Below are positions 7,495 to 45,635 of a stretch of DNA of 60,391 bases, in pieces. The DNA comes from Megasphaera massiliensis. Lineage in GTDB: Bacteria > Bacillota > Negativicutes > Veillonellales > Megasphaeraceae. The notes below the pieces were generated by a model. The model saw only the letters and a program-made list of their open reading frames with translations. It did no database searches and was not told the DNA's origin. The first letter of the stretch is position 1. Every line of letters starts with the position of its first letter. The stretch covers positions 29,954 through 90,344 of the forward strand of contig NZ_HF954559.1 in the NCBI RefSeq assembly GCF_000455225.1, written 5' to 3'. The position numbers and the translations under genes are program-made.

Positions 7495-8844
7495 ATGCTC
7501 AATTTAATCTGGAACTTTTTCAGAACGGCACCGGACGCCGTACCAATGACGGATGGCGAGGCCATCAAGAAAAAGTTTAACGCCATGCGTTGGCGCGTAT
7601 TTGCTTCCATCACAATCGGATATGCTTTTTATTACATCATCCGCCAGAGTTATTCGGTTATTAAGAAGCCGCTTCTGGCATCGGGGATCGTTACGCCGAC
7701 GGAAATCGGGATCATCGGCTCGGTATTCTTCGTAACCTACGGTCTTGGGAAATTTACCAACAGTTTCCTGGCAGACCGCATGAATAACAAGCGATTCTTT
7801 TCCTTTGGCTTGTTCATTTCTTCACTCACTATGGTCGGCATGGGGCTTGTCAATTCCTTCGTTCCCTTAGCCGTCTTGTGGGGTCTTAATGGCTGGTTCC
7901 AGTCTTATGGTGCCGGTCCGTCCATTGTCTCCCTGAATCAGTGGTTCAGCAATAAACAGCGCGGAACCTTGTATGGCATCTGGTTTACGAGTCACAACCT
8001 AGGCTCATCTTTCGCTTACTTTGCCATTGCTGCCATCGTTTCCATGTACAACTGGTCTATGGGCTTCATTGCGGCCGGCATCATCTCCCTTATTGGGACG
8101 GCCTTCATTTACTTCGGTATGAGCGACCGTCCGGAAACGCAGGGACTGCCGAACGGCGCCGTCTATTACGGAGAAAAGACGCAGGAACAGATCGATGCGG
8201 AAAAAGAAAAATCAGTCGGCACCATGCAGTGGAATGCCGTCGTCAAGAATCCTGCCGTTTGGATTCTCGGTCTTTCCTCACTCTGTGTCTATATTGCCCG
8301 CTATGCCATTGAAAGCTGGGGCGTCGTTTATCTGACGTCGCAGAAGGGCTATGATATGATGGGGGCTGCCGGCGTCATGGCTTATATGCAGGTGGCCGGT
8401 ATCTTCGGGGCGCTCTTGTGCGGTGTTATTTCAGACAAGTTCTTCAATCACAAGCGCAATATGCCGGCCTTGTTATATGGGATCTTCTATTCCCTGTCCA
8501 TTGCAGGCTTCCTCTGGGCACCGCAGTCCTTTACTATGGATATGCTGTGCATGACCTTCTACGGCTTCACCATGGGGGCTTTGGTTTGCTACATGGGCGG
8601 TCTCATGGCTGTCGATATCGTGCCCAAACGCGTTACCGGTGCGGCTATGGGGATGATCGGTCTCCTCAGCTATGCCGGCGCGGCCCTGCAGGAATTCATT
8701 ACGGGGAAACTCATGACCATCACCGTCGTCAATGGCGTTAAAGTCTATGACTTCGGACTGGCTACGGAATTTTGGGTCGGTGCAGCCGTCGTCTCGACGC
8801 TGCTGGCTCTCCTCGTTTGGAATGCAAAACCGAAAGAAGACTAA
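7495..8844 (+). CDS. Organophosphate:phosphate antiporter (UhpT/GlpT family)
   Basis: A 449-residue major-facilitator protein of the OPA family, with about 12 membrane segments. The RQSYSVIKKPL region (about residue 42), the GLGKFTNSFLADR loop and the GWFQSYGAGPSI segment match sugar-phosphate antiporters such as UhpT and GlpT, which swap hexose- or glycerol-phosphate for inorganic phosphate. The start at 7495 is preferred over an upstream in-frame codon because GGAAGGAG precedes it. It is followed by a terminator and then a PhnD-like lipoprotein, sensor kinase and regulator, so the substrate is probably a sugar phosphate sensed outside the cell. It could also be a UhpC-type receptor. Confidence 0.88.
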   Translation: MLNLIWNFFRTAPDAVPMTDGEAIKKKFNAMRWRVFASITIGYAFYYIIRQSYSVIKKPLLASGIVTPTEIGIIGSVFFVTYGLGKFTNSFLADRMNNKRFFSFGLFISSLTMVGMGLVNSFVPLAVLWGLNGWFQSYGAGPSIVSLNQWFSNKQRGTLYGIWFTSHNLGSSFAYFAIAAIVSMYNWSMGFIAAGIISLIGTAFIYFGMSDRPETQGLPNGAVYYGEKTQEQIDAEKEKSVGTMQWNAVVKNPAVWILGLSSLCVYIARYAIESWGVVYLTSQKGYDMMGAAGVMAYMQVAGIFGALLCGVISDKFFNHKRNMPALLYGIFYSLSIAGFLWAPQSFTMDMLCMTFYGFTMGALVCYMGGLMAVDIVPKRVTGAAMGMIGLLSYAGAALQEFITGKLMTITVVNGVKVYDFGLATEFWVGAAVVSTLLALLVWNAKPKED

Positions 8845-27907: not shown

Positions 27908-29353
27908 CTAATGTTGAGCCTCATATTGCTTTCGTTTTCTAACAAAGGTTGAGGGCGTTAATCCTAGGTTTTTGGACGCTGTTCGGACGTTTCCGAACAT
28001 TTTATATGCATTTTGAATATAATTATATTCAATCTTTTCCAGTACCTCTTTTAAATTGATTGGAAATTGAATGGGCGGTGCGGCAAAGTCGGCCGGTTTA
28101 TTTTCAACTTCCTTTTCTTTGATGATTACGATGGGTTTACTGGCCGGGTGAATGTGGAGATCTTCTGGTTGTATGGCGTCGGAAGAACTGATGATGATGG
28201 CCCGTTCGACAATGTTTTTTAGTTCGCGAATGTTTCCCGGCCAATCGTACTCATGGAGCAGCTGCATCGATAAAGGGGTCAAATACTTTTTCATTTGATA
28301 CCTTTGATTCAGCTTTTCTAAAAAAGATTTTGCTAAAGGCTCGATGTCTTTTTTTCGCATTCGTAATGGCGGGATCGAAATTGGAAAAACGGTGAGTCGG
28401 TAATAGAGGTCTTCCCGGAATGTTCCGTTTTTTACCATTTCTTCGAGATTTCGATTGGTTGCGGCAATGATCCGGACGTCGATTGTTATGGGTTTTGTGC
28501 CGCCTACTCGCATGATTTCCTGTTCCTGTAGGGCACGCAGCAGCTTTACCTGCATATCTTTCGGGAGTTCCCCGATTTCGTCAAGAAATAAGGTCCCATT
28601 ATTGGCGAGTTCGAAGAGGCCGATTTTACCACCTTTATTGGCACCGGTAAAAGCGCCGCCTTCATATCCGAATAACTCGCTTTCAATGAGGTTTTCCGGG
28701 ATGGCGCCGCAATTCACCTTTATGAAACTTCCTTTTGATCGCAGGCTGTGCTGGAAGATATATCGCGCCATGACTTCTTTACCGACCCCGGTTTCACCAA
28801 ATAGGATGACCGAGGTGTCCATTGAAGCAACGCGATTGGCCAGTAGCATAGCGGCCAAGGTCGTTTCATCTTTTGCGATGATTTCGTGAGTTTCTTCTGC
28901 CGTCGTTTGTAAATGCTCTAACTCTAAAGCTAAACGGTCCATAGCGGCCGTTTTTTCTTGTACAACGGCTTTCAAATTGTAAATTTCGGTTAAATCTCGG
29001 ACATTGGTCACGACCATGATAAAGTTTCCGTCTTTATCAAAAATGGGAGAGCTTGTTACTAGAGCTTCTTTTCCGGAACGAAAACATTGTTGCAAGGTAA
29101 CAGGCTGCTTGGTTTTGATGACCTGGAGCGACCCGGACTGAGATATTAATTTATCGCGGACCAAGTCGGCCATATTTTTCCCGATGACTTCCTCTTGCTT
29201 TAATCCGGTAATGATTTCATAGGCATGGTTGATGCGGAGTACGTTGGCTTTTGCATCAGTAATGAATATACCGTCAAAGGAATGCTCTATAATTGCGTTT
29301 AAACGCTCCTGGGCCTCTGAGAGCGTGGAAAAAATTTTAGCGGTAGTTGTCAT
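27908..29353 (-). CDS. Sigma-54-dependent transcriptional activator with PAS domain
   Basis: A 481-residue enhancer-binding protein. It has an N-terminal PAS sensor domain (about residues 14-125), an AAA+ domain with Walker A GETGVGKE (about 186), the sigma-54 contact loop GAFTGA, and Walker [13 protein letters not shown], and a C-terminal Fis-type helix-turn-helix ([20 protein letters not shown]). All parts needed to drive open-complex formation by sigma-54 are intact. A likely target set is the divergent promoter pair at 36.4-36.9 kb. It has its own promoter (29439-29467), so it can be made before the rest of the system. Confidence 0.93.
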
Positions 29354-29438: not shown

Positions 29439-29467
29439 ATTATAACAATTTTTGGTTATAGTAACAA
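29439..29467 (-). promoter_or_regulatory. Sigma-A promoter of the sigma-54 activator gene
   Basis: Minus strand: TTGTTA (29467-29462), 17-base spacer, TATAAT (29444-29439), about 85 bases before the start codon. It lies between the sigma-54 gene and the activator gene, giving the activator independent expression. Confidence 0.65.
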
Positions 29468-29512: not shown

Positions 29513-30784
29513 CTATTGATGACGAGAATAGGAGTTAGAAATATGCAGTATTTCTCGATATTTTTGAATTAATCTTCTTGAAAAGGAGTATTCGAACTGG
29601 TCCGTCAACAGTGCAGTTAATTGGGCATCACTGTACGGATGTTTGACGTCTTCGTTTTCAATCAGCCGAGCGAGAGACTGTTGTACGGCATCTTTCGAAA
29701 TGGTTTCTTTTGTCTTAGGAAAAGGACGCTGAAATAAATGTTTGAAGGAAATGGTTTTATGCGGCGTTTGTAGATACTTGTCTTTTATAGAACGACTGAT
29801 GGTAGAGGGATGAAGGCCTACTTTTTTGGCAATATCTGACAGCGTCATCGGCTGCAGCGGTCCTTGGTTCTGTAAATAGTCTTGCTGACAGTTCCAAATG
29901 GCATCGGTTAAGGCATGCAGCGTTTTACGGCGGCGTTCAATATTATAAAACAGTAGGCGACAGCGCGTATATTTGGTTTGGAAATATTCCTTTACACTTT
30001 CGTCGGTCGTTGTCCGCATCATCCGGACGTAGTAATCGCTCATGGAATAAGAGGCTGACCAGGAGTCGTTTAAAATGACTTCGTGGTCGGTGCCCGTGAA
30101 TTGAATGATGACATCGGGAATAATATAGGAGGCTTCTGCTTCGAAGATGCCGCTAAGTGGTGCCGGATTTAATTTCTTGATGAGAGCTATGGCGGCATCG
30201 ATCTTTGTTTTGGGACCCTTTACAGATTGGTAAATCTGTGAGCGTTTTTGTTTTCCTATATCTGAAAGATGATGGTCAATCAGTTTTTCCAATAGCGGGG
30301 TTAACTTGTGATTGCGACGTAGCTGCAATTTTAGACAGTCCTTGAGCGACGTCGCGCCTATACCGGCAGGATCCAGTTCTTGGAGACGGCATAGGCAGAA
30401 GTCAAAAAGGCCTGCCGGCAAGGGCAATTTTTCGGTTATTTCTTCTTCGGTTATGGTCAAGTATCCTCTGCTATCGACATAGTCGGCCAAATACGAAAAC
30501 AGGGCCCACTGGGGTTTTGTAAAATTCGCGGAATTTACTTGTTCCAAAATAAATTGTTTGACGCTGCGCTCTTCCGGAGCTGCTACAAAATCTAAAAAGG
30601 AAGTATCGTTGTGGGCTGACGATCTTTGATTTGGGCTATACTCCATGAAGGGGTTTTCTTCGGATTCTTTTTGAAGCAGGTTGTACAGAGATTCTGTGGA
30701 TAAGGCGAGAATATTCAACGATTGAATTTGATTGGTTGAAAGTTTTTGAAGCTCTTTCTGACTCAGTGTTAAGTTGGTGTCCAT
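29513..30784 (-). CDS. rpoN: RNA polymerase sigma-54 factor, divergent RpoN box
   Basis: A 423-residue sigma-54 factor. Region I is Gln/Leu-rich (LSQKELQKLSTNQIQSLNIL), followed by an acidic linker, core-binding region and a helix-turn-helix (TLSDIAKKVGLHPSTISRSI, about residues 318-337). The C-terminal RpoN box, usually ARRTVAKYRE, reads SRRLIQKYRE: three of the ten positions central to -24 recognition differ. It lies 4 bp after the ligase gene as the last cistron of the lux-like operon. Whether the genome has a second, standard rpoN cannot be told from the window. Confidence 0.9.
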   Translation of the reverse strand: MDTNLTLSQKELQKLSTNQIQSLNILALSTESLYNLLQKESEENPFMEYSPNQRSSAHNDTSFLDFVAAPEERSVKQFILEQVNSANFTKPQWALFSYLADYVDSRGYLTITEEEITEKLPLPAGLFDFCLCRLQELDPAGIGATSLKDCLKLQLRRNHKLTPLLEKLIDHHLSDIGKQKRSQIYQSVKGPKTKIDAAIALIKKLNPAPLSGIFEAEASYIIPDVIIQFTGTDHEVILNDSWSASYSMSDYYVRMMRTTTDESVKEYFQTKYTRCRLLFYNIERRRKTLHALTDAIWNCQQDYLQNQGPLQPMTLSDIAKKVGLHPSTISRSIKDKYLQTPHKTISFKHLFQRPFPKTKETISKDAVQQSLARLIENEDVKHPYSDAQLTALLTDQFEYSFSRRLIQKYREILHISNSYSRHQ

Positions 30785-30788
30785 TGTT

Positions 30789-32213
30789 TCACCTTCCGTC
30801 CTTTTCGGCCAGGTCGTTCAAAATTGGGTACTGGGTTTTCCCCGACGTATTTTTGGGGATTTGTTCTATTTGATGGATACTGAAGCAGTGGATATGAAGG
30901 CCGAGTTTTTCGATTAAGAAATCTTCTATTTCTGGTTGTTTGTCTGTGGTGCCCGTCATAAAAATATGCAGGTCATCATCTTTTCCGGTACAAGCAAAGT
31001 CGCTAACGTCAAAGGTGTTTTTTAAGAGTTCTTCTACTTCATCCATATTTACGCGCTTCCCCATTATTTTTAGGAAGCGTTTTTTTCGGCCGGTAATATA
31101 GTAGTATCCGTCTTGATCAACATAGGCCATATCTCCCGTATAAAGCCGTCCATGTCGTAAGTCTCCTAAGGATAAATCCTCTGCTTTCTGAGCGTACCCC
31201 ATCGTTACATTCGGACCGTCATAACAAAGTTCTCCGGTTACCTTCGGCGTCGTGATTTCCGTTTTTTCATCTTCCATGATGTGGAAGGTCCCGCCCGGGA
31301 TTGCGATGCCGATACTTCCCAATTTTTCCAAGGCTTTATCAAATGGCAGATAGGACATGCGTGCCGTTGCTTCTGTTTGGCCATACATGACGATAAAACG
31401 CTTTCCTGTTTTGTGCGCAAATTCAAGATATTCCTTTTGCAGCCGTGTCGATAAATGGCCGCCGGCTTGAATCATCAGCTTCAATTTTGGCAAATCCATA
31501 GACATGATTCCAATGCGCTTCAAACACTCAAAGGTGAAGGGAACACCTGCCAGTGAGGTGATAGATTCTTTTTTACAGATGTTCCAGAATTCTTTATCAA
31601 AGACCGTATTTTCTGTCAGGCATTCGCAGGCACCCTGGAGGACATGGCTGTTTATTACTGACAGACCGAAGGTGTAGTGCATCGGGAGAGATGAAATCGG
31701 ATGATCCAGCTCGGTGATTTTTAGATATTCAGCGATAGAGGCCGCATTTGATTGAATATTTTTATAACTTTGACGGACTAATTTCGGGCTTCCCGTACTT
31801 CCGGACGTCGTTAATAACAGGGCTAAATCCGGATGAATATGGTGGTTGATTTCATTACTATGATATAGGCCGTAATCATATAGTGTATATATTGGTTCTT
31901 CTGTATCATCTATGGGCTTAAACAGGTAATTGGGCTTATATCGCATCAATAATTGTTGCTGTAATTCTTCATCCATATCGTGATCGATGAGAAGGGGGAC
32001 GATATGGTTTTGCAGGCAGCAAAGGTAGGATAGTGCAGAGCCTATGGTATTATGGCAGATAATGGCCGCTAATTGTTTGGGTTTATTTTCGATTAGTTGA
32101 TGTACTTTTTTGCTGTGAACATACCAATCGCCATAAGTAATGGAATGGTCCATTCCATCAATAAATAAGAGATGATCTTGGTATTTAGGGTTTTCATCAA
32201 AGAAACACAACAT
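30789..32213 (-). CDS. ANL-superfamily acyl-adenylating ligase
   Basis: A 474-residue AMP-forming ligase. The phosphate-binding loop is TTSGSTGSPK (about residues 140-149), the adenylate motif YGQTEATARMSY is present, then GRLYTGDMAYVDQDGYYYITGRKKRFLKIMGKR region motifs, and the C-terminal catalytic Lys lies in NTSGKTQY. The start at 32213 follows AGGAGGG with 6 bases spacing. Upstream in the operon are a lone acyl carrier protein, LuxE and LuxC, so it probably activates a carboxylic acid for loading on that carrier. Acid specificity is unknown. Confidence 0.85.
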   Translation of the reverse strand: MLCFFDENPKYQDHLLFIDGMDHSITYGDWYVHSKKVHQLIENKPKQLAAIICHNTIGSALSYLCCLQNHIVPLLIDHDMDEELQQQLLMRYKPNYLFKPIDDTEEPIYTLYDYGLYHSNEINHHIHPDLALLLTTSGSTGSPKLVRQSYKNIQSNAASIAEYLKITELDHPISSLPMHYTFGLSVINSHVLQGACECLTENTVFDKEFWNICKKESITSLAGVPFTFECLKRIGIMSMDLPKLKLMIQAGGHLSTRLQKEYLEFAHKTGKRFIVMYGQTEATARMSYLPFDKALEKLGSIGIAIPGGTFHIMEDEKTEITTPKVTGELCYDGPNVTMGYAQKAEDLSLGDLRHGRLYTGDMAYVDQDGYYYITGRKKRFLKIMGKRVNMDEVEELLKNTFDVSDFACTGKDDDLHIFMTGTTDKQPEIEDFLIEKLGLHIHCFSIHQIEQIPKNTSGKTQYPILNDLAEKDGR

Positions 32214-32224
32214 AGGAATCCCTC

Positions 32225-33412
32225 CTAACGAATGATGCGGGTCAGTGATTCCAGTAGATTGCGGCCATCCCAAATTATATCCATATCCATGGCTTGCCCG
32301 ATTGGTACAACTCGGTCTACACCGGTTACCTGAGCTTGGATGAGCTGGTTTCGAACTTCAGTTGGGGATATATTTAAGGTCGTGATAGTCTGGACTTTAG
32401 CCGTAAGGTAGGGGAATATGTCCGATAAATCTTGTAATGGATATTGAAAAAATTGACCAAAAGTTCCTGATAATTGAGTTATATCGAAGGGAAAGTCAGA
32501 TAATGTATAGACATAAAGTCGGTTGTTGTCATATGCGATGGATTGAATTTCAGTTTCATGCATTGCAAATTTCCAGGCTTCGGTGAATTTTCGACTTACT
32601 TTAATCGGAGCCAGGTCGTATTTCTGTATTTCATGGACAACGGCTTTCCACCATCGCTGCTGCGCATCGATGAAGTCGCTTTTTGATCCAAGCCAAAAAA
32701 TAAGTCTTGGAGAGGAGCAGGCATTTTGATCTACTTCATAGGTATCTAAATAAAAATGATGAACTTTTTCTTTTAATTCTTCATCTGAACAAGTAATGAT
32801 ATAATTGCTATCGAAGACCGACAGTGAGTAGCGATCGGGAAACGGAATGTCGATAGCCTTGGGAGATAAAGGGGATTTTCTGATTTCGAGAATTGTTTTG
32901 TCTCCACCCCAAATTATGCGGCTGTCACAGCATTTTGAAAATAAATCCGTTACTTTTTTTTCGTGATCATAGGTTATGATTGCATTTTGATTAAATAGGC
33001 GTCTATACGAAGGAGCGCGTAAGAGGTGATCGAATAAGCTGCAAATGGGGGAAACTGCTGGGACTAGCTTCGGCGATATCCGAACTACATTGGCGTTGCC
33101 GGCTAACAAGGATATGAATAGACTGTATAAAAACATGACGGGCATGTTAGATGGGGCAATGTGAAAGGTTAAGCCGCGTCCCAATCGAGTTTCAAGATAG
33201 GGAAGTAATTTTTTATATTCTTCTATTTTCCTTGGTCGAAGCCAAAAGCTAAAAGCTGCCCATTCCGGATTATCTTTTACTATTGGGAGATTTAACAGTT
33301 GGCGAGAGAACTCGTTACAAAACTGTACTGTCAACGGTGAAAAAGGAGGGAATGGAGTTGTTTTTTTGGGAATCATTCCTGCGATTGTCGTGAACTTTTT
33401 AATTGTGTGCAT
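32225..33412 (-). CDS. LuxC-family acyl thioester reductase
   Basis: A 395-residue protein of the LuxC acyl-CoA/acyl-protein reductase family, an aldehyde-dehydrogenase-fold enzyme making aldehydes with NAD(P)H. Typical segments are HIAPSNMPVMFLYSLF (84-99), GNANVVRISPK (105-115), PFPDRYS (190-196), and the catalytic Cys232 in DQNACSSP. The start overlaps the LuxE end by 14 bp, and GGGGG lies upstream. No luxAB luciferase genes are present, so the aldehyde has another use, such as a fatty alcohol or a lipid or signal precursor. Confidence 0.9.
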   Translation of the reverse strand: MHTIKKFTTIAGMIPKKTTPFPPFSPLTVQFCNEFSRQLLNLPIVKDNPEWAAFSFWLRPRKIEEYKKLLPYLETRLGRGLTFHIAPSNMPVMFLYSLFISLLAGNANVVRISPKLVPAVSPICSLFDHLLRAPSYRRLFNQNAIITYDHEKKVTDLFSKCCDSRIIWGGDKTILEIRKSPLSPKAIDIPFPDRYSLSVFDSNYIITCSDEELKEKVHHFYLDTYEVDQNACSSPRLIFWLGSKSDFIDAQQRWWKAVVHEIQKYDLAPIKVSRKFTEAWKFAMHETEIQSIAYDNNRLYVYTLSDFPFDITQLSGTFGQFFQYPLQDLSDIFPYLTAKVQTITTLNISPTEVRNQLIQAQVTGVDRVVPIGQAMDMDIIWDGRNLLESLTRIIR

Positions 33413-34466
33413 CGCTGCACCCCCTTATCTCCGCCTTGGCAATACGGCCGTCAATGCGAAAATATTTGCCTAAACGACCACAAGGGCAATCATCAATGCC
33501 TAATAATGTTCCCATGTCTTCTGTCAGAATCGAATGCCCGGGATAGGATGTTGCCAGCGGTGTTAATACCTGAACTATTCCAGATTCACCAATGGCGCAA
33601 GGGGAAAAGTCTTCAGGATTGCGGATAATGATATCTGAAAAAATACTGGCATGGAGGTGGCCTTGCTCACACTCCATATAAATACATCCGGTTTGTTCAG
33701 CCATACCATAGTAATTGTGAACTTTGCTGATTTTAAACTGCTCGTATAGACGCTGCTTATAAATTGTGGGCGAAACGGCTCGATCTTGCATCTTTTTCCA
33801 GCCACCGCCATGGATGAGAATCGCATTGGATAAATCGAGCACTCCCGGGTAATCTGCCAGCGCTTCGCATAAATACTGCCAAATCATGAAAGTGAACCCG
33901 AAAATGAGCACCGGTTGATCATGATAGGTTTGGATAAAGGTTCGGATGCTCTCTAGGTCTATCGACAAATCAGACTTTAGGGCATAATATTTTCGTTTGG
34001 CAAAAATAGAAAATCCTAAAACGGCAGCCCCTCTCGCATTGAAGGCATTGCGGTTTTTTAATAAGTCCGGCGTGTCGACAATGAGCATCGGCAATCGAGC
34101 GGAACCGATGAAGTTTTCTACAATATGGTATAAGGCAAATTGTTGATTGCTTGCTGTTGTAGTATCGAGATATAGGTGGGAAGCTATACCGGATGTTCCG
34201 GACGAGGTAATCACTTTGAAAACGTCCTGGTCGCTGATACTTTTTAACTCTTCTGTCTTAAAAAGAGATATAGGGAGCATGGGAATGGTTGAAATTTTGT
34301 TATAGCGATTGCGTTTGAGCCTTAAGGTGTTCAATGCCTGTCCGTACGGTGGGCAAGCCTTGCTGTGTTGAAGTGTTAATTCGGATAAGAGGTGTATATA
34401 ATGGTGCTCTTTTTCGGATTGGGTCCAAGCAAATGGCGGCTGGTCTAGCCAAGTATTATAGTCCAT
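33399..34466 (-). CDS. LuxE-family acyl-protein synthetase
   Basis: A 355-residue acyl-protein synthetase/acyl-transferase of the LuxE family. It carries the adenylate-forming TSSGTSG loop (about residues 96-102), the YGMAEQTG motif (about 246) and the C-terminal DDCPCGRLG segment matching the region of the acyl-bearing Cys in bacterial LuxE. In luminous bacteria LuxE passes an activated fatty acyl group to LuxC, which is encoded directly downstream here with a 14-bp overlap. GGAGGTGAAGG precedes the start. Confidence 0.88.
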   Translation of the reverse strand: MDYNTWLDQPPFAWTQSEKEHHYIHLLSELTLQHSKACPPYGQALNTLRLKRNRYNKISTIPMLPISLFKTEELKSISDQDVFKVITSSGTSGIASHLYLDTTTASNQQFALYHIVENFIGSARLPMLIVDTPDLLKNRNAFNARGAAVLGFSIFAKRKYYALKSDLSIDLESIRTFIQTYHDQPVLIFGFTFMIWQYLCEALADYPGVLDLSNAILIHGGGWKKMQDRAVSPTIYKQRLYEQFKISKVHNYYGMAEQTGCIYMECEQGHLHASIFSDIIIRNPEDFSPCAIGESGIVQVLTPLATSYPGHSILTEDMGTLLGIDDCPCGRLGKYFRIDGRIAKAEIRGCSDAHN

Positions 34467-35112
34467 AGGTATCCTTCACCTCCTTTGTCAATATAAAGGG
34501 TGCTCTGTGACCGGGATATGTTTTTATTGGTGTGGGTAAACTCCGTAAAACGGGCTTACCCCATTTTTCATAGGCCTGTTCATCCCCGCCAGGGAGTCGT
34601 GTGATGACATTTTCGTTTGGAATGAAGTAGTCTCCTGAAAACAAGAGTGCTTCATCGACGATGATACAACTGCTGCCGGGAGTATGGCCGGGGGCGGATT
34701 GGCATAAAATTGTATGCCGTCGCCAGGTCGTCGTGTAAACTTTTTCAAAGGTAATATCTGCCGGTTGGCAAGTAAAAGGCGGGTATGAAACTCTCATTTT
34801 TCCATTGCTCTTAAAATATAAATACGTTTCCATAATCCTTGTCATATTTAAGGTAGTACTTTGAATTCCCCGGCTGCAGGCGTCACTGCATAAAACTTTT
34901 ACCGGATACTGTTTCCTGAGGTCGTTGAGGGCCGCTATATGGTCGCAGTGTTCATGTGTTAAAATGACAAGTTCCGGAGTTAGATTTTTCTCGGTAAGAT
35001 AGGAATGGATTTTTTGAAAATTATTTGGATCGACGATGAGAACGCGATCCCCGGAGACTAACAGATAGCAGTTGCTGTCAGTCAGGGGATCGACAATTAT
35101 TTTTTCGAGCAT
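34456..35112 (-). CDS. Metallo-beta-lactamase-fold hydrolase
   Basis: A 218-residue MBL-fold protein with the di-metal motif THEHCDHIAAL (about residues 51-61), a further His in SAPGHTPGSS, Asp in FSGDYF, and His in YPGHRAP. This layout is typical of glyoxalase-II-like thioester hydrolases. The start at 35112 lies 1 bp after the acyl carrier protein stop. In this setting it may release product from, or clear, acyl-carrier thioesters (inference). Confidence 0.85.
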   Translation of the reverse strand: MLEKIIVDPLTDSNCYLLVSGDRVLIVDPNNFQKIHSYLTEKNLTPELVILTHEHCDHIAALNDLRKQYPVKVLCSDACSRGIQSTTLNMTRIMETYLYFKSNGKMRVSYPPFTCQPADITFEKVYTTTWRRHTILCQSAPGHTPGSSCIIVDEALLFSGDYFIPNENVITRLPGGDEQAYEKWGKPVLRSLPTPIKTYPGHRAPFILTKEVKDTYGL

Positions 35113-35113
35113 T

Positions 35114-35350
35114 TTAAATATCGACGCCGTATTTTCGTAAAATATCCATTCCTTTTTCATAAGAGCTGAATGCCAGCACATCGGGGGTATCAATGGAAAT
35201 ATCGAAGGTATCTTCCATTTCTTCCATTAATGTCATATGGCCCATAGAGTCCCATAATTTAATACTGCGATACTTTAGACCGGGTAGGTCTTCTTTTTTT
35301 AGTTTGAAATTATTCATAAAAAGCTGTTCGTATTTTTCTAAGTTTGTCAT
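35114..35350 (-). CDS. Acyl carrier protein
   Basis: A 78-residue acyl carrier protein. The phosphopantetheine attachment Ser35 lies in LWDSMGHM, a variant of the usual DSL motif. Helices before and after are acidic as expected. It differs from the housekeeping AcpP and is encoded inside the lux-like operon, so it is probably dedicated to the ligase/LuxE/LuxC pathway. Its ATG overlaps the end of the upstream MaoC gene by 4 bp. Confidence 0.88.
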   Translation of the reverse strand: MTNLEKYEQLFMNNFKLKKEDLPGLKYRSIKLWDSMGHMTLMEEMEDTFDISIDTPDVLAFSSYEKGMDILRKYGVDI

Positions 35351-36084
35351 GATTTATTCTCCTGTTCTGTGTGATTGGATGTGTCGTGATAGATAAATAA
35401 TGTTTTCATCATCAATTGATGGATAGTGCCTTCTACGACTCTGGTTCCATCTGCTTTTTGGCAAATTCCTCGAAATTTGCCAATGTACCAGCGTTTTTTT
35501 TCTTCGACACGAATTAGTTCTATCGACGCATTAATGGTGTCGCCGGGATAAACGGGAGCGGTAAAGGATAATTGTTCATCCATTAAAATCGTTCCATCGC
35601 CCGGGAAAATAGTTCCCATGATAGAAGATAAGAGGCTGGCGGTCAGTACCCCGTGAACAACGGGGCGGCCAAATCCATGGAGGGCCGCAAAGGTCGAATC
35701 GGTGTGCAGCTTTCCGGAATCTCCGGTCAGTGCAGCGAATTGATAGATGTCTTCATCGGTGAATGTTTTGGTCATGGTGGCAGTTGTGCCTACCCGTATT
35801 TCTGTTTTTGCTGTTGGGGCCTGTTGAGATGAAGCCTCCATTTCTTTTGAAAAGTCCTTAAATTGTTGCGGTGTGAGGAGTTGGCGGAACTGTCGCGCTG
35901 CGATACCCGTTTTATCTGCACAGGCCGTCATACAGCCACACACGAGCAGACAGATATCACAGACTGTATTTTCCACATCATATGTAAACATATGTTGAGG
36001 AAATTTTTTTTTCAGCTTTTCTACTTCGTGGCTGCGATCGTAGCGAGGGTTGCAGCCTCCGCAATATTTTATGCCTATTTTCAT
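35347..36084 (-). CDS. Fusion of Cys-rich domain and MaoC-type hydratase
   Basis: A 245-residue two-part protein. Residues 1-60 form a cysteine-rich module with KYCGGCNPRYDR at the start and CDICLLVCGCMTAC further on, a pattern that could bind metal or an Fe-S cluster. Residues about 100-225 are a MaoC-like hot-dog hydratase with the catalytic stretch FAALTGDSGKLHTD...GRPVVHGVL; the usual Asn-Pro before the catalytic His is replaced by Gly-Lys. Such domains hydrate or dehydrate (R)-3-hydroxyacyl thioesters. The fusion is unusual, and its operon suggests action on an acyl-carrier substrate. Confidence 0.82.
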   Translation of the reverse strand: MKIGIKYCGGCNPRYDRSHEVEKLKKKFPQHMFTYDVENTVCDICLLVCGCMTACADKTGIAARQFRQLLTPQQFKDFSKEMEASSQQAPTAKTEIRVGTTATMTKTFTDEDIYQFAALTGDSGKLHTDSTFAALHGFGRPVVHGVLTASLLSSIMGTIFPGDGTILMDEQLSFTAPVYPGDTINASIELIRVEEKKRWYIGKFRGICQKADGTRVVEGTIHQLMMKTLFIYHDTSNHTEQENKS

Positions 36085-36087
36085 AGC

Positions 36088-36387
36088 TTACCTCTGCATA
36101 TGACGCATGCGTAATATATCTTTCGCTTGAGCAATGAGGGAGTTGCTGACCCCGGTTACCAGGATAATGTCTTGGACCTCGGGGATGGACTCACGAATCT
36201 TATTTCCGATGAGTTCTTCTGTCGTTAATTGGGCTGACGGACAGCCGCTGCATTTTCCGGTTAGGCGGATTCGTAAAATGTGATTAGTGTAGTCGACGAT
36301 GGCGACATCCCCTTGGTGTTCGGCTAAGATGGGTCTAATTTCTTTTTCTAATACAGATTCAATTTGTTGTTTTATAGAATCATTCAT
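36088..36387 (-). CDS. NifU C-terminal-domain protein
   Basis: A 99-residue protein of the NifU C-terminal type, with the cluster-binding GKCSGCPSAQ motif (about residues 42-51). It can hold a [4Fe-4S] cluster. The start at 36387 follows TAGGATG; a GTG at 36396 is the alternative. It is the first gene of the lux-like operon, which otherwise has no obvious Fe-S enzyme except perhaps the Cys-rich MaoC fusion 4 bp downstream, its most likely partner. Confidence 0.85.
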   Translation of the reverse strand: MNDSIKQQIESVLEKEIRPILAEHQGDVAIVDYTNHILRIRLTGKCSGCPSAQLTTEELIGNKIRESIPEVQDIILVTGVSNSLIAQAKDILRMRHMQR

Positions 36388-36425
36388 TGTATTCACATCC
36401 TATCTGATTAATTTAATTATTTATA

Positions 36426-36441
36426 TGAAATTATCGTGCCA
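36426..36441 (-). promoter_or_regulatory. Candidate sigma-54-type promoter of the lux-like operon
   Basis: Minus strand: TGGCACG (36441-36435), four bases, then TTTCA (36430-36426). The -24 element is a perfect match to TGGCACG, and the -12 reads TTTC in place of TTGC. Transcription would begin near 36415, leaving a short leader with the ribosome binding site TAGGATG. The mismatch at the critical -12 GC is the main doubt. Confidence 0.5.
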
Positions 36442-36893
36442 AAATTAAAAGGGATAATGTGTGATAAATAATAGTTCTTAATTTCACGATTTTGAAGGGG
36501 GAAAATAGGTGTATAAGTGGATATATTTTTAAATATAAAATATATCCGATATAAGCAAATACATAATGCGCGTGTGTAATGTAATGAGACAAAAATAAGA
36601 TAAAATGTTTTACTGACTAAAAGCAAGAAAATATAGAAATAAACCTAGATTAACAATGCGTTTTGACGAATTTGCCGAACCAAAAATGAAACAAAATAAA
36701 TTTGTTCCAAAATTAAAACAACATACTGTTGCAAATGTGCTAAAAGTGAAACGAATAAATGCTATAAATATAAGTAAAGCTAAATGTGAAATAGTGAACT
36801 ATATTGATTGAAAAAAATAAAAATTTATCTGGATGAGATAATTACTATGCTTTTAAAGAAATAAACGCTATATTTTTTTTCATGATCATTTAC

Positions 36894-36910
36894 TTGGCAT
36901 GATTTTTGCT
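36894..36910 (+). promoter_or_regulatory. Sigma-54 promoter of the 4-hydroxybutyrate operon
   Basis: TTGGCATGATTTTTGCT matches the sigma-54 consensus TGGCACG-N4-TTGCW at all but one position, and the invariant GG (36896-36897) and GC (36908-36909) are exactly 10 bases apart. Transcription would start near 36921, about 70 bases before the dehydratase start codon. Confidence 0.82.
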
Positions 36911-36990: not shown

Positions 36991-38442
36991 ATGGCATTAA
37001 TGACAGGCGAACAGTATATCGAAAGTATGAGAAAGAAAAATTTACAGGTCTATATGTTCGGTAAGAAAATTGCATGTCCTGCTGATGACCCGATTCTCCG
37101 TCCGTCCATGAATTCCGTTCGCATGACCTATGATCTGGCTCAGCAACCGGAATATCAAGAACTGATGACGGCCGTTTCTCCCTATACTGGTGAACGCGTT
37201 AACCGCTTTACCCATATTCATCAGAGCACAACGGACTTAATGAATAAAGTAAAAATGCAGCGCCTTTGTGGTCAGAAAACGGCTTCTTGCTTCCAGCGTT
37301 GTGTCGGGATGGACGCTTTTAACGCTGTATTCTCGACGACCTTTGATACGGACAAGAAATATGGAACAAAATATCATGAAAATTTCATGAAATTCTTGAA
37401 ACGTGTACAGGAAGAAGACCTTACGGTAGACGGGGCTATGACAGACCCTAAAGGTGACCGTGGCTTGGCTCCGCATGCTCAGGCAGATCCTGATATGTAT
37501 CTTCATGTTGTAGAACGTCGTCCGGATGGCATCGTCGTCCGTGGTGCTAAAGCACATCAGACTGGTTTTATTAATTCCCATGAAGTTATCGTCATGCCGA
37601 CCATTTCCATGGGGGAAGATGATAAAGATTATGCAGTATGTTTCTCTTGCTCTACGGATGCTGAAGGCATTTTCATGATTGTTGGTCGTCAGTCTTGCGA
37701 TACCCGTAAAATGGAAGGCGCTCCTATGGATACGGGCAATCCTGAATTCGGTGGGACAGAAGCTCTGGTCATCTTTGATAACGTATTTATCCCGAACGAA
37801 AACATCTACCTCAATGGTGAATATGAATTTGCCGGCGTCTTGGTTGAACGCTTTGCCGGATATCATCGTCAATCTTATGGCGGATGTAAAGTTGGTGTTG
37901 GCGACGTCCTCATCGGTGCCGCTGCCGTAGCAGCCGACTACAATGGCTGCCCGAAAGCTTCTCATGTTAAGGATAAGATTATCGAAATGCAGCACCTCAA
38001 TGAAACCCTCTTTGCCTGCGGGATTGCCTGCTCGGCCCTGGGAACGAAAACTGAAGCTGGCAACTATCTTATCGATTTGCTCTTAGCGAACGTCTGCAAA
38101 CAGAATGTAACTCGTTTCCCCTATGAAATCGTTCGGTTGGCTGAAGATATCGCCGGTGGTCTGATGGTTACGGCTCCGTCTGAAAAAGACCTTCGTGATC
38201 CGAAGATTGGGCCGTATGTCGACAAATACCTCAGAGGTGTCAACTCTGTATCGACTGAAAATCGTCTCAAAATTTTACGCCTGATTGAAAATCTAAGCTT
38301 AGGTACTGCTGCTGTCGGCTACCGTACTGAATCGATGCATGGCGCCGGTTCGCCGCAGGCACAGCGCATCATGATTTCACGCCAGGGCAACTTGCGCATG
38401 AAGAAAGAATTGGCTAAATCTATTGCACAGATCGAAGAATAA
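36991..38442 (+). CDS. abfD: 4-hydroxybutyryl-CoA dehydratase / vinylacetyl-CoA isomerase
   Basis: A 483-residue flavin and [4Fe-4S] enzyme that converts 4-hydroxybutyryl-CoA to crotonyl-CoA by ketyl-radical chemistry and isomerises vinylacetyl-CoA. The cluster ligands known from the Clostridium aminobutyricum enzyme are all present: Cys100 and Cys104 in ASCFQRC, His292 and Cys299 in GYHRQSYGGC. Full length matches the family. GAAAGGATG lies before the start. It opens the rightward operon with a CoA-transferase and a permease. The enzyme is oxygen-sensitive, consistent with an anaerobe. Confidence 0.96.
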   Translation: MALMTGEQYIESMRKKNLQVYMFGKKIACPADDPILRPSMNSVRMTYDLAQQPEYQELMTAVSPYTGERVNRFTHIHQSTTDLMNKVKMQRLCGQKTASCFQRCVGMDAFNAVFSTTFDTDKKYGTKYHENFMKFLKRVQEEDLTVDGAMTDPKGDRGLAPHAQADPDMYLHVVERRPDGIVVRGAKAHQTGFINSHEVIVMPTISMGEDDKDYAVCFSCSTDAEGIFMIVGRQSCDTRKMEGAPMDTGNPEFGGTEALVIFDNVFIPNENIYLNGEYEFAGVLVERFAGYHRQSYGGCKVGVGDVLIGAAAVAADYNGCPKASHVKDKIIEMQHLNETLFACGIACSALGTKTEAGNYLIDLLLANVCKQNVTRFPYEIVRLAEDIAGGLMVTAPSEKDLRDPKIGPYVDKYLRGVNSVSTENRLKILRLIENLSLGTAAVGYRTESMHGAGSPQAQRIMISRQGNLRMKKELAKSIAQIEE

Positions 38443-38568: not shown

Positions 38569-38594
38569 GATTTATAAGAAAGTAGGTGTGTGTG

Positions 38595-39899
38595 ATGGAT
38601 TGGAGAAAAGAATATGGCAGCAAGATTGTATCTGCTGAAGAAGCGATAAGCCACGTCCAGTCCGGCAACCGTATTGTCTTTACCCATGCTTGTGGTGAAT
38701 CACAAGTTTTAACCGAAGAATTGGTTCGCCAGGCCGATCGTCTTGAAAACGTAGAAATTGTCCACATGGTTGCAATGGGACAGGCTCCCTATTGTCAGCC
38801 GGGGATGGAAAAGCATTTTAAACATAATGCCTTGTTTGTCGGCGGTTCTACACGAAAAGCTGTTGAAGAAGGCCGCGCAGACTATACGCCGTGTTTCTTC
38901 CATGAAGCTCCTCAACTTTTTGCGGATGGAACATTGCCGGTCGATGTCGTTTTCCTGCAACTTAGCGAACCCGATGAAGACGGAAATTGCTCTTATGGCG
39001 TATCTGTTGACTATACGCAGCCGGCAGCGGAAGTTGCAAAGTTGGTTATTGCTCAGATTAATAAGAATATGCCTTATACTTATGGGAATGGCATCAACCT
39101 TAAAGATATTGACTATATCGTAGAGAAGGACGAAGATCTTATTGAACTCCAGCCGCCTAAAATTGGTGAAACGGAACGTAAGATTGGGGAATATATTGCT
39201 TCCTTGATTCACGACGGAGATACGTTGCAGCTCGGTATTGGCGCGATTCCGGATGCAGTACTGTCTTTCTTGGGCGATAAAAAGGATCTCGGTATCCATT
39301 CAGAAATGTTCTCTGACGGCGTCGTTGATTTAGCCCGTAAAGGCGTTATTACCAATAAAAAGAAGACGGTTGATCCGGGAAAATTCGTTTCTTGTTTCCT
39401 CATGGGGACCAAAAAACTATATGACTTTGTAAATAACAATCCGGATGTTTTGATGAAACCCGTCGATTATACCAATGATCCCTTTGTAGTCGCCAAAATC
39501 GATAATATTATTTCGATTAATTCGGCCATGCAGGTCGACTTGATGGGCCAAGTAAATGCTGAAATGATCGGATATAAACAGTTCAGTGGTGTTGGTGGCC
39601 AGGTCGATTTTGTTCGCGGTGCATCGCGGGCTAAAGGTGGGAAGGCCATCATTGCGATGTCCTCTACTGCCGGTCACGGTAAAATTTCGAAAATTGTTCC
39701 ATTGCTGGATGAAGGTGCTGCTGTCACAACGTCTCGTAATGATATCGACTATGTCGTTACTGAATTTGGCATTGCCCATCTTAAAGGGCGCACCTTACGG
39801 CAGCGTGCTATGGAACTCATTAAGATTGCCCATCCGGATTTTAAACAAGATTTAATTGCAGTATTTGAACAGCGGTTTCATTGTAAGTATGAAGGATAA
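38595..39899 (+). CDS. abfT: 4-hydroxybutyrate CoA-transferase
   Basis: A 434-residue CoA-transferase of the Cat2/AbfT branch of the acetyl-CoA hydrolase/transferase family. The catalytic Glu is Glu237 in GIHSEMFSDG (Glu238 in the C. aminobutyricum enzyme). The CoA-binding GIGAIPDAV and GGQVDFVRGA segments are present. It makes 4-hydroxybutyryl-CoA from 4-hydroxybutyrate and acetyl- or butyryl-CoA. ATG at 38595 is preferred; a GTG at 38586 is also in frame. It follows the dehydratase by about 150 bp on the same strand. Confidence 0.92.
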   Translation: MDWRKEYGSKIVSAEEAISHVQSGNRIVFTHACGESQVLTEELVRQADRLENVEIVHMVAMGQAPYCQPGMEKHFKHNALFVGGSTRKAVEEGRADYTPCFFHEAPQLFADGTLPVDVVFLQLSEPDEDGNCSYGVSVDYTQPAAEVAKLVIAQINKNMPYTYGNGINLKDIDYIVEKDEDLIELQPPKIGETERKIGEYIASLIHDGDTLQLGIGAIPDAVLSFLGDKKDLGIHSEMFSDGVVDLARKGVITNKKKTVDPGKFVSCFLMGTKKLYDFVNNNPDVLMKPVDYTNDPFVVAKIDNIISINSAMQVDLMGQVNAEMIGYKQFSGVGGQVDFVRGASRAKGGKAIIAMSSTAGHGKISKIVPLLDEGAAVTTSRNDIDYVVTEFGIAHLKGRTLRQRAMELIKIAHPDFKQDLIAVFEQRFHCKYEG

Positions 39900-45299: not shown

Positions 45300-45635
45300 T
45301 ATCACTACCTCCTAGAATTAATTTGACTTTTGAATCGATATATCTAATAATTAATTATTAGACCTAATAATTAATTTGATTGTAACATGAGGAATGGAAA
45401 AAGTAAATTATTTCACACGTGGATAAATTATGAATTTTCTTGACTAGAAAACACTCTGTTAATATTGATAGCAGAAGGTATGGTGGGTTGCGAGACCTTG
45501 TTTTCCTAAGTATACTAATAGATAAATATACTGCTTTTCCATGGAAAAGGTGTAGTGGCCAGAGCGTCTAACAATTTTTGGATTTTTGAAAAATTAAGTT
45601 AAGCTAAGGCTTATTTCACCTCAAGGGGGATCGTT
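45300..45635. other. Divergent intergenic region yedE / desulfurase-like gene
   Basis: About 335 AT-rich bp. Apart from the palindrome at 45344-45376 I saw no clear promoter hexamers for the rightward gene. AAGGGGGATCG before 45636 is the ribosome binding site. Confidence 0.4.
45344..45376. promoter_or_regulatory. Palindrome plus direct repeat upstream of yedE
   Basis: A perfect 18-bp palindrome CTAATAATTAATTATTAG (45344-45361) is followed after two bases by a second copy of its first 13 bases, CTAATAATTAATT (45364-45376), a 20-bp period. It lies 45 bp upstream of the yedE start, so a dimeric regulator could bind two adjacent sites on one DNA face. Confidence 0.6.

Follow-up and report, generated by a model that had tools for sequence, protein, structure and literature searches.

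The stretch of DNA analysed here (the window, 60,391 nt of Megasphaera massiliensis, G000:C28:29954-90344) carries a sigma-54 gene within an operon that has a sigma-54 promoter-like site of its own, which raises the question of which sigma factor reads which promoter at this locus. Bacteria in general strongly conserve the -24/-12 element of sigma-54. This sigma is commonly regarded as one factor, and the specificity is ascribed to the activator. One survey reports more than one rpoN gene in about 5% of organisms (PMC12316311). Our preferred answer, of modest confidence, is that this gene encodes a true second sigma-54, RpoN2, which serves a single metabolic island, taken jointly with a different -12 element for each sigma factor and with the wiring proposed below.

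The rpoN2 island and its distribution

RpoN2 is a complete sigma-54 of 423 aa with the C-terminal end ...SRRLIQKYREILHISNSYSRHQ. Its AID, CBD and DBD score 32.8, 134.1 and 133.7 bits against Pfam cut-offs of 23.8, 22.9 and 22.8, and the protein also passes the NCBIfam equivalog model rpoN_sigma (309.6 bits, cut-off 277.35), so the sequence-only reading of a sigma-54 with the box SRRLIQKYRE was correct. RpoN2 is predicted to bind core RNA polymerase and to need an AAA+ activator, and an activator gene adjoins it. The genome of the window (G000, 2.74 Mb in 28 contigs, 99.96% complete) encodes a second sigma-54, RpoN1, on another contig (G000:C27:127216-127695, 130.9 bits), a gene that the sequence-only reading had suggested looking for. 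It had also named what would count against it, namely a sole rpoN gene in the genome and a box shared by orthologues throughout; the box type is indeed common to the orthologues throughout the clade, but RpoN2 is not the sole sigma-54. An activator (EBP) gene adjoins each of rpoN1 and rpoN2, and the EBP matches in this genome comprise three strong and six weak ones. By NCBI taxonomy the genus belongs to the class Negativicutes of the phylum Bacillota, and a search with rpoN placed Megasphaera cerevisiae, at 58% identity, and a Megasphaera MAG, at 55%, closest among the named relatives.

Table 1. Features of the rpoN2 island, in window coordinates
Feature	Position	Strand	Evidence
EBP2: PAS + AAA+ (GAFTGA) + HTH sigma-54 activator	27908..29353	-	domain + synteny
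sigma-70-like extended -10 site TTGTTA-17-TATAAT, rpoN2-EBP2 gap	29439..29467	-	motif scan
rpoN2, sigma-54 paralogue, box SRRLIQKYRE	29513..30784	-	domain + alignment
AMP-binding acyl ligase, rpoN2 operon	30789..32273	-	domain + synteny
LuxC-family acyl-CoA reductase, rpoN2 operon	32225..33412	-	domain + synteny
LuxE-family acyl-protein synthetase, rpoN2 operon	33399..34466	-	domain + synteny
Metallo-beta-lactamase-fold (MBL) hydrolase, rpoN2 operon	34456..35193	-	domain + synteny
MaoC-like dehydratase, Cys-rich N-terminal part, rpoN2 operon	35347..36084	-	domain + synteny
NifU-like domain protein, first gene of the operon	36088..36396	-	domain + synteny
Leftward operon promoter TGGCACG-ATAA-TTTCA, RpoN1-type -12	36426..36441	-	pattern scan
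Putative EBP2 enhancer copy 1, 13/16 to TGTTNCAAAAATGNAACA	36676..36693	+	consensus match
Putative EBP2 enhancer copy 2, 14/16 to TGTTNCAAAAATGNAACA	36703..36720	+	consensus match
Putative EBP2 enhancer copy 3, 12/16 to TGTTNCAAAAATGNAACA	36736..36753	+	consensus match
Rightward abfD promoter TGGCATG-ATTT-TTGCT, classical -12, RpoN2-type	36895..36910	+	pattern scan
abfD-like gene, HpaB-family, presumed RpoN2 target	36991..38442	+	domain
CoA-transferase-like gene, 3' of abfD, presumed RpoN2 target	38586..39899	+	synteny

The operon combines relatives of the ligase, LuxC and LuxE (30789-34466), a fatty-acid-reductase-like set, in a sigma-54 operon that is tied to the abfD-like gene. The latter probably encodes a protein like 4-hydroxybutyryl-CoA dehydratase, and the gene 3' of it is presumably CoA-transferase-like. 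The MaoC-like protein begins with a Cys-rich segment, IKYCGGCNPRYDR, which is kept in G011, where the MaoC part is strongly diverged. The abfD paralogues at L136-L139 in G001, G010 and G012 are 84-87% identical, and three of the four are accompanied by MaoC and NifU pieces; no same-strand sigma-54 site was found just upstream of them at the scan threshold. The description of rpoN2 as the last cistron is not clearly right, since the gene for the activator EBP2 lies 159 nt further on the same strand.

The family sample comprised 17 genomes, namely the window's own, 14 others of the genus and two of a sister genus (G015 and G016). An RpoN2 orthologue with the SRR box is present in nine of them, LuxE is present in 9/17, among them G011, and in the RpoN tree the nine RpoN2 rows form one clade on a long stem (support 100/100). 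The gene order EBP2-rpoN2-ligase-LuxC-LuxE-MBL-MaoC-NifU//divergent abfD is found in the seven RpoN2 loci that lie whole within one contig, a count that leaves out G003, where the same genes are distributed over three contigs, and G009, where a contig end cuts the locus. A survey of 300 genomes of the class gave an rpoN match at threshold in 137, of which 16 belong to this family, and two of the other 121 have two matches. Proteins at least 45% identical to RpoN2 were confined to this family among the class genomes searched.

Only RpoN1 was found in G001, G004, G005, G010 and G013; some genomes are incomplete (G004 89%, G009 78%, G013 82%, G016 87%), so that "RpoN1 only" denotes what was found and is no proof of absence. 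RpoN1 was likewise not found in G008, which is 83% complete. The sister-genus genomes G015 and G016 have a third type, RpoN3, with the box ARRTLTKYRR, and four TTGCA sites in these two genomes might be RpoN3 targets. G011 has kept the whole island, with rpoN2 missing between the ligase and EBP2 (C10, about 8057-8140; L133); its sole rpoN match, of the RpoN1 type, has S379 and a box that begins SRR, and lies on a long branch that makes its placement less sure. G002 pairs with G016 on two RpoN trees and is not resolved on a further one. Both rpoN genes and a transporter gene of G003 are each in two pieces in different frames, which may reflect sequencing errors in the assembly.

Two classes of -12 letters

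The gap between nifU and abfD has two sigma-54 promoter-like sites, one in each direction, in all nine genomes that are readable there, which bears out the claim that the operon has a -24-like promoter. The abfD promoter has TTGCT in 8/8 RpoN2 genomes, and both gap promoters of G011 have TTGCA. The leftward operon promoter is more variable, with TTTCA in the window species, G003 and G007, TTACA in G002, and TTGCT in G006, G008, G012 and G016.

The letters of other sites were obtained by scanning around EBP genes with the pattern TGG[CT]A-N6-TTNC, which leaves the tested -12 letter free. Strict genome-wide motif scans of the window genome gave about as many matches as reversed-pattern controls (8 vs 9 and 7 vs 5), and only activator-linked intergenic sites were therefore counted. 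Upstream of genes the tested letter is T at 35 sites, G at 20, A at 4 and C at 3, and inside genes it is even (G 27, C 22, T 20, A 16; G at 27/85). The 63 sites consist of 62 scanned ones and the iorA site of G005, which was added by hand as the simple gene caller had missed the start of that gene. Of these, 58 were kept, the five dropped being two from a duplicate stretch and three excluded by the rules on distance or letters; the count of 58 leaves out the iorA site of the window genome and the nifU site of G012, though both are present in the sequence.

TTGC occurs at none of the 14 activator-linked sites in the five RpoN1-only genomes, which have TTTCA, TTACA or TTCCA instead. These sites are spread over several different targets, which we take from their translated starts to be iorA (6), adh (3), atuA (2) and others (3). 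The abfD sites have G in 9/9 cases, and the other loci of genomes with both RpoN1 and RpoN2 have it in 1/11. The sole G among those 11 is at iorA of G012 (TGGTACT-TATA-TTGCA, L223 5890-5905). The single other site of G008 is TTTCA, and the sister genus has G at 4/15 other sites, all of them TTGCA. Six Negativicutes genomes outside the family, most of them chosen for an RpoN resembling RpoN2, served as a control and have TTGC at 18/19 intergenic sites, counted around 30 of 56 EBP matches. The flanks were short in this control, and neither the distance rule nor the letter rule was applied; under the latter 17 of the 19 stay, all with G. Five f18 genomes have G at 3/3 sites (TTGCA), and the two that stay under the letter rule both have G. 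The base after the C also differs, being A in 37/40 non-G sites and T in 11/13 abfD and nifU G sites. Fisher tests of the RpoN1-only sites give 1.2e-6 against the abfD sites and 1.8e-8 against the outside-family control, values that overstate the case because many of the sites are orthologous and not independent.

Most likely, to judge from these letters, the -12 preference has moved to TT(T/A/C)CA in RpoN1 and has stayed at the classical TTGCT in RpoN2. From linkage and co-occurrence we infer that the unusual -12 goes with RpoN1 and not with RpoN2, which reverses the assignment in the sequence-only reading, where TTTC had been given to RpoN2; the RpoN1-only sites and the abfD promoters both speak against that assignment. 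The idea of a dedicated second sigma-54 survives in other respects, as the operon and the activator are conserved along with RpoN2, and the family does have two classes of -12. Two features of a specialised pair of the Rhodobacter sphaeroides type are present, namely two separate rpoN genes and separate letter classes, the latter with iorA of G012 and, in part, G011 as exceptions.

The leftward 16-mer of the window is identical to the iorA site of the RpoN1-only genome G005 and to the atuA site of G015, which is without RpoN2. TTTC as a private element of RpoN2 was rejected, as the RpoN1-linked iorA promoter of the window genome also has TTTCA. With letters of the RpoN1 class, the leftward promoter of the window is better read as an RpoN1 promoter, and the operon encoding RpoN2 appears to be a target of RpoN1 rather than of its own product. 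Should TTGCT be ancestral, then with the pairing of G002 and G016 the operon promoter has shifted to RpoN1-type letters on two occasions, on both of which the G and the T two places after it were replaced, and the TTGC of abfD was kept in all nine genomes. The operon promoter is outside the class of the encoded sigma in the window species, G003, G007 and G002, and its letters do match that class in G006, G008, G012 and G016. The positive feedback through RpoN2 that had been suggested is thus doubtful in the window species, with its TTTCA, and plausible in these four relatives.

Residues of the RpoN box and the HTH

The sequence-only reading had contrasted the RpoN box with a near-invariant ARRTVAKYRE and had suggested that a second sigma-54 with altered -12/-24 preference would explain the TTTC. 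This box is not near-invariant in Negativicutes, since of 42 RpoN proteins from outside the family 27 have S and 15 have A as its first letter, a sample that includes 20 extra proteins picked for low similarity. The fourth letter is T in 40 of the 42 and A in two, and the L, V or A at this position is the unusual feature of the RpoN2 box. In the solved closed complex of sigma-54, R455 and R456 of the box region read the -24 element, and H377, S379 and R383 of the HTH recognise the GC of the -12 element (PMC9770992), so that a change in the box is not expected to alter the -12. The arginines that match R455 and R456 are kept in RpoN2 and in all aligned RpoN rows. The -24 core is the same in both -12 classes (TGGCA, with one TGGTA). 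The SRR box was rejected as the cause of the -12 change on these grounds and on the frequency of S in the class.

The residues matching E. coli H377, S379 and R383 are kept in 9/9 RpoN2 proteins. RpoN1 has S377 in 14/14 and A379 in 11/14, with T379 in one more, and S379 is kept in all 42 RpoN sampled outside the family, where the A or T379 of RpoN1 is absent. The HTH letters fit the split between RpoN1 and RpoN2 in part only. The RpoN1 of G015 and G016 keeps S379, yet TTTCA is found at 10/15 other sites there, and the f18 genomes have lost H377, yet have TTGCA at all three of their sites.

A further position of the recognition helix, 378, varies within RpoN2, being P in the three species with a TTTCA operon, C in the species with TTACA, and I, I, I and S in the four with TTGCT. 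It tracks the -12 change of the operon, and RpoN2 itself may have shifted. It is conceivable on these grounds, though unlikely, that RpoN2 of the window species reads both TTGCT and TTTCA and drives its own operon, TTTCA being a weakened or re-tuned RpoN2 site. The location of rpoN2 inside the operon would suit such self-activation, and so would the TTGCT operon promoters of four species, where feedback fits. Against it, the altered promoters have RpoN1-class letters at both changed positions, apparently in two lineages, the leftward 16-mer recurs exactly in genomes without RpoN2, and the same species has kept TTGCT at abfD.

EBP2, the proposed wiring and related systems

EBP2 adjoins rpoN2 in the window and in eight RpoN2 loci compared, and is thereby linked to RpoN2; in G011 it is the sole strong activator match, beside an RpoN1-type sigma. 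The GxFTGA loop was rejected as a marker of sigma pairing, as seven EBP2 proteins have GAFTGA and the other activators are a mixture of GAFTGA, GSFTGA and GTFTGA. The gap before the EBP2 gene has a sigma-70-like site that scores 10/12 in the window, 9/12 in G007 and 10/12 in G003. Other candidates in this gap score 10/12 in G012 and 9/12 in G016, and only 7/12 in G006, G008 and G002, where the gaps are shorter. Extended -10 sites show no excess over shuffles in the region, which makes the window site weak evidence by itself. With such a site, some species at least could have EBP2 in place ahead of the firing of the operon.

Between the divergent promoters, each of the nine gaps has two or three copies resembling TGTTNCAAAAATGNAACA at a spacing of 27-35 bp, plus weaker matches. 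At 13/16 or better there are 20 sites in the nine gaps, compared with a mean of 0.19 in plain shuffles, a count that is optimistic as the consensus was derived from the same gaps. The window has two more 13/16 matches outside the gap, at 45576 and 58341, and none of at least 14/16 was seen at six RpoN1-linked loci. The dyad TGTT-N10-AACA is present in 8/9 gaps (maximum 6 in 30 plain shuffles), and the A-run dyad AAAA-N12-TTTT is likewise present in eight. The copies are probably EBP2 sites that serve both promoters.

It is somewhat probable that the island works by two -12 codes and one EBP2, as a feed-forward circuit in the window species and by feedback in four relatives. RpoN1 would read TT(T/A/C)CA and RpoN2 TTGCT, with the -24 TGGCA common to both, and EBP2 bound to the enhancer copies would serve the two divergent promoters. 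On a signal that activates EBP2, EBP2 and RpoN1 would fire the leftward operon of the window species from its TTTCA promoter, RpoN2 would accumulate, and EBP2 with RpoN2 would then fire abfD from TTGCT. This would be a coherent feed-forward loop from one sigma-54 to another, in which abfD needs a lasting signal. In G006, G008, G012 and G016 the TTGCT of the operon promoter would give positive feedback instead. The broader picture, in which two codes exist side by side on one enhancer and activator, RpoN1 having departed from TTGC for TTTCA, and minor alterations of the rpoN2 operon promoter rewired the island between feedback and feed-forward in separate lineages, is more tentative and falls a little short of probable.

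Strict separation of the two codes has the TTGCA of G012 iorA against it, as well as the TTGCA promoters of G011. Since the latter genome is without rpoN2, its RpoN1-type protein can probably serve TTGC; this may be one sigma adapting to the promoters of the other, or, equally, RpoN1-type proteins may read TTGC. Taken further, RpoN1 could read all sigma-54 promoters, RpoN2 could be redundant or serve for dosage, and the letters at -12 could differ with promoter strength and not with the choice of sigma. The retention of the operon and both promoters in G011 and the G012 iorA site would agree with this, but we consider it quite improbable, as TTGC is missing from the sites of RpoN1-only genomes though it is the rule in the class sample, and the RpoN2 clade has been retained in full, its HTH contacts conserved. 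A split that follows the activator, with EBP2 requiring TTGCT, is very improbable: the abfD promoters do share EBP2 and the enhancer copies, but the leftward promoter of EBP2 itself has TTTCA or TTACA in four species with the same enhancer, and TTTCA is common to several different activator-target pairs.

If the assignment of the two codes to RpoN1 and RpoN2 is correct, a common sigma-54 with a changed -12 reading and a paralogue with the old one would constitute a natural experiment that could show how a promoter code evolves, which residues set it and how two regulons stay apart. G011, with the same promoters and without rpoN2, is a built-in test case. The letters also suggest that most RpoN1 sites in the family of Megasphaera would escape a sigma-54 promoter search based on the classical TTGC motif. 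No description of sigma-54 promoter classes in Megasphaera was found among the titles and abstract openings listed from an open-licence library.

Pairs of rpoN genes are known from other bacteria. The rpoN1/rpoN2 pairs of Ralstonia and Xanthomonas resemble the present one in having two sigma-54 genes with partly distinct roles, and the openings of the abstracts on them do not mention separate -12 classes such as those found here. The ordinary sigma-54 of Clostridiales, in a study that used TTGGCATNNNNNTTGCT, has a -24 of TTGGCAT and a -12 of TTGCT (PMC6615313), the latter being the -12 of the RpoN2-linked sites, whereas the RpoN1-linked sites in the family of Megasphaera are without TTGC. In Rhodobacter (Cereibacter) sphaeroides, the -11 base and cognate activators distinguish RpoN1 from RpoN2 (PMC11999139, which cites Poggio et al. 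2006). As here, several rpoN genes have separate target sets there, and the choice depends partly on one base of the -12 region (PMC11999139). The present pair differs in belonging to Bacillota, in having the G of the -12 GC as the most striking letter, in that the departing paralogue is the more widespread RpoN1, and in that one activator seems to serve both sigma factors. The R. sphaeroides pair is the closest known case, from which the Megasphaera pair is set apart by a different discriminating letter and a possible cascade from one sigma-54 to another.
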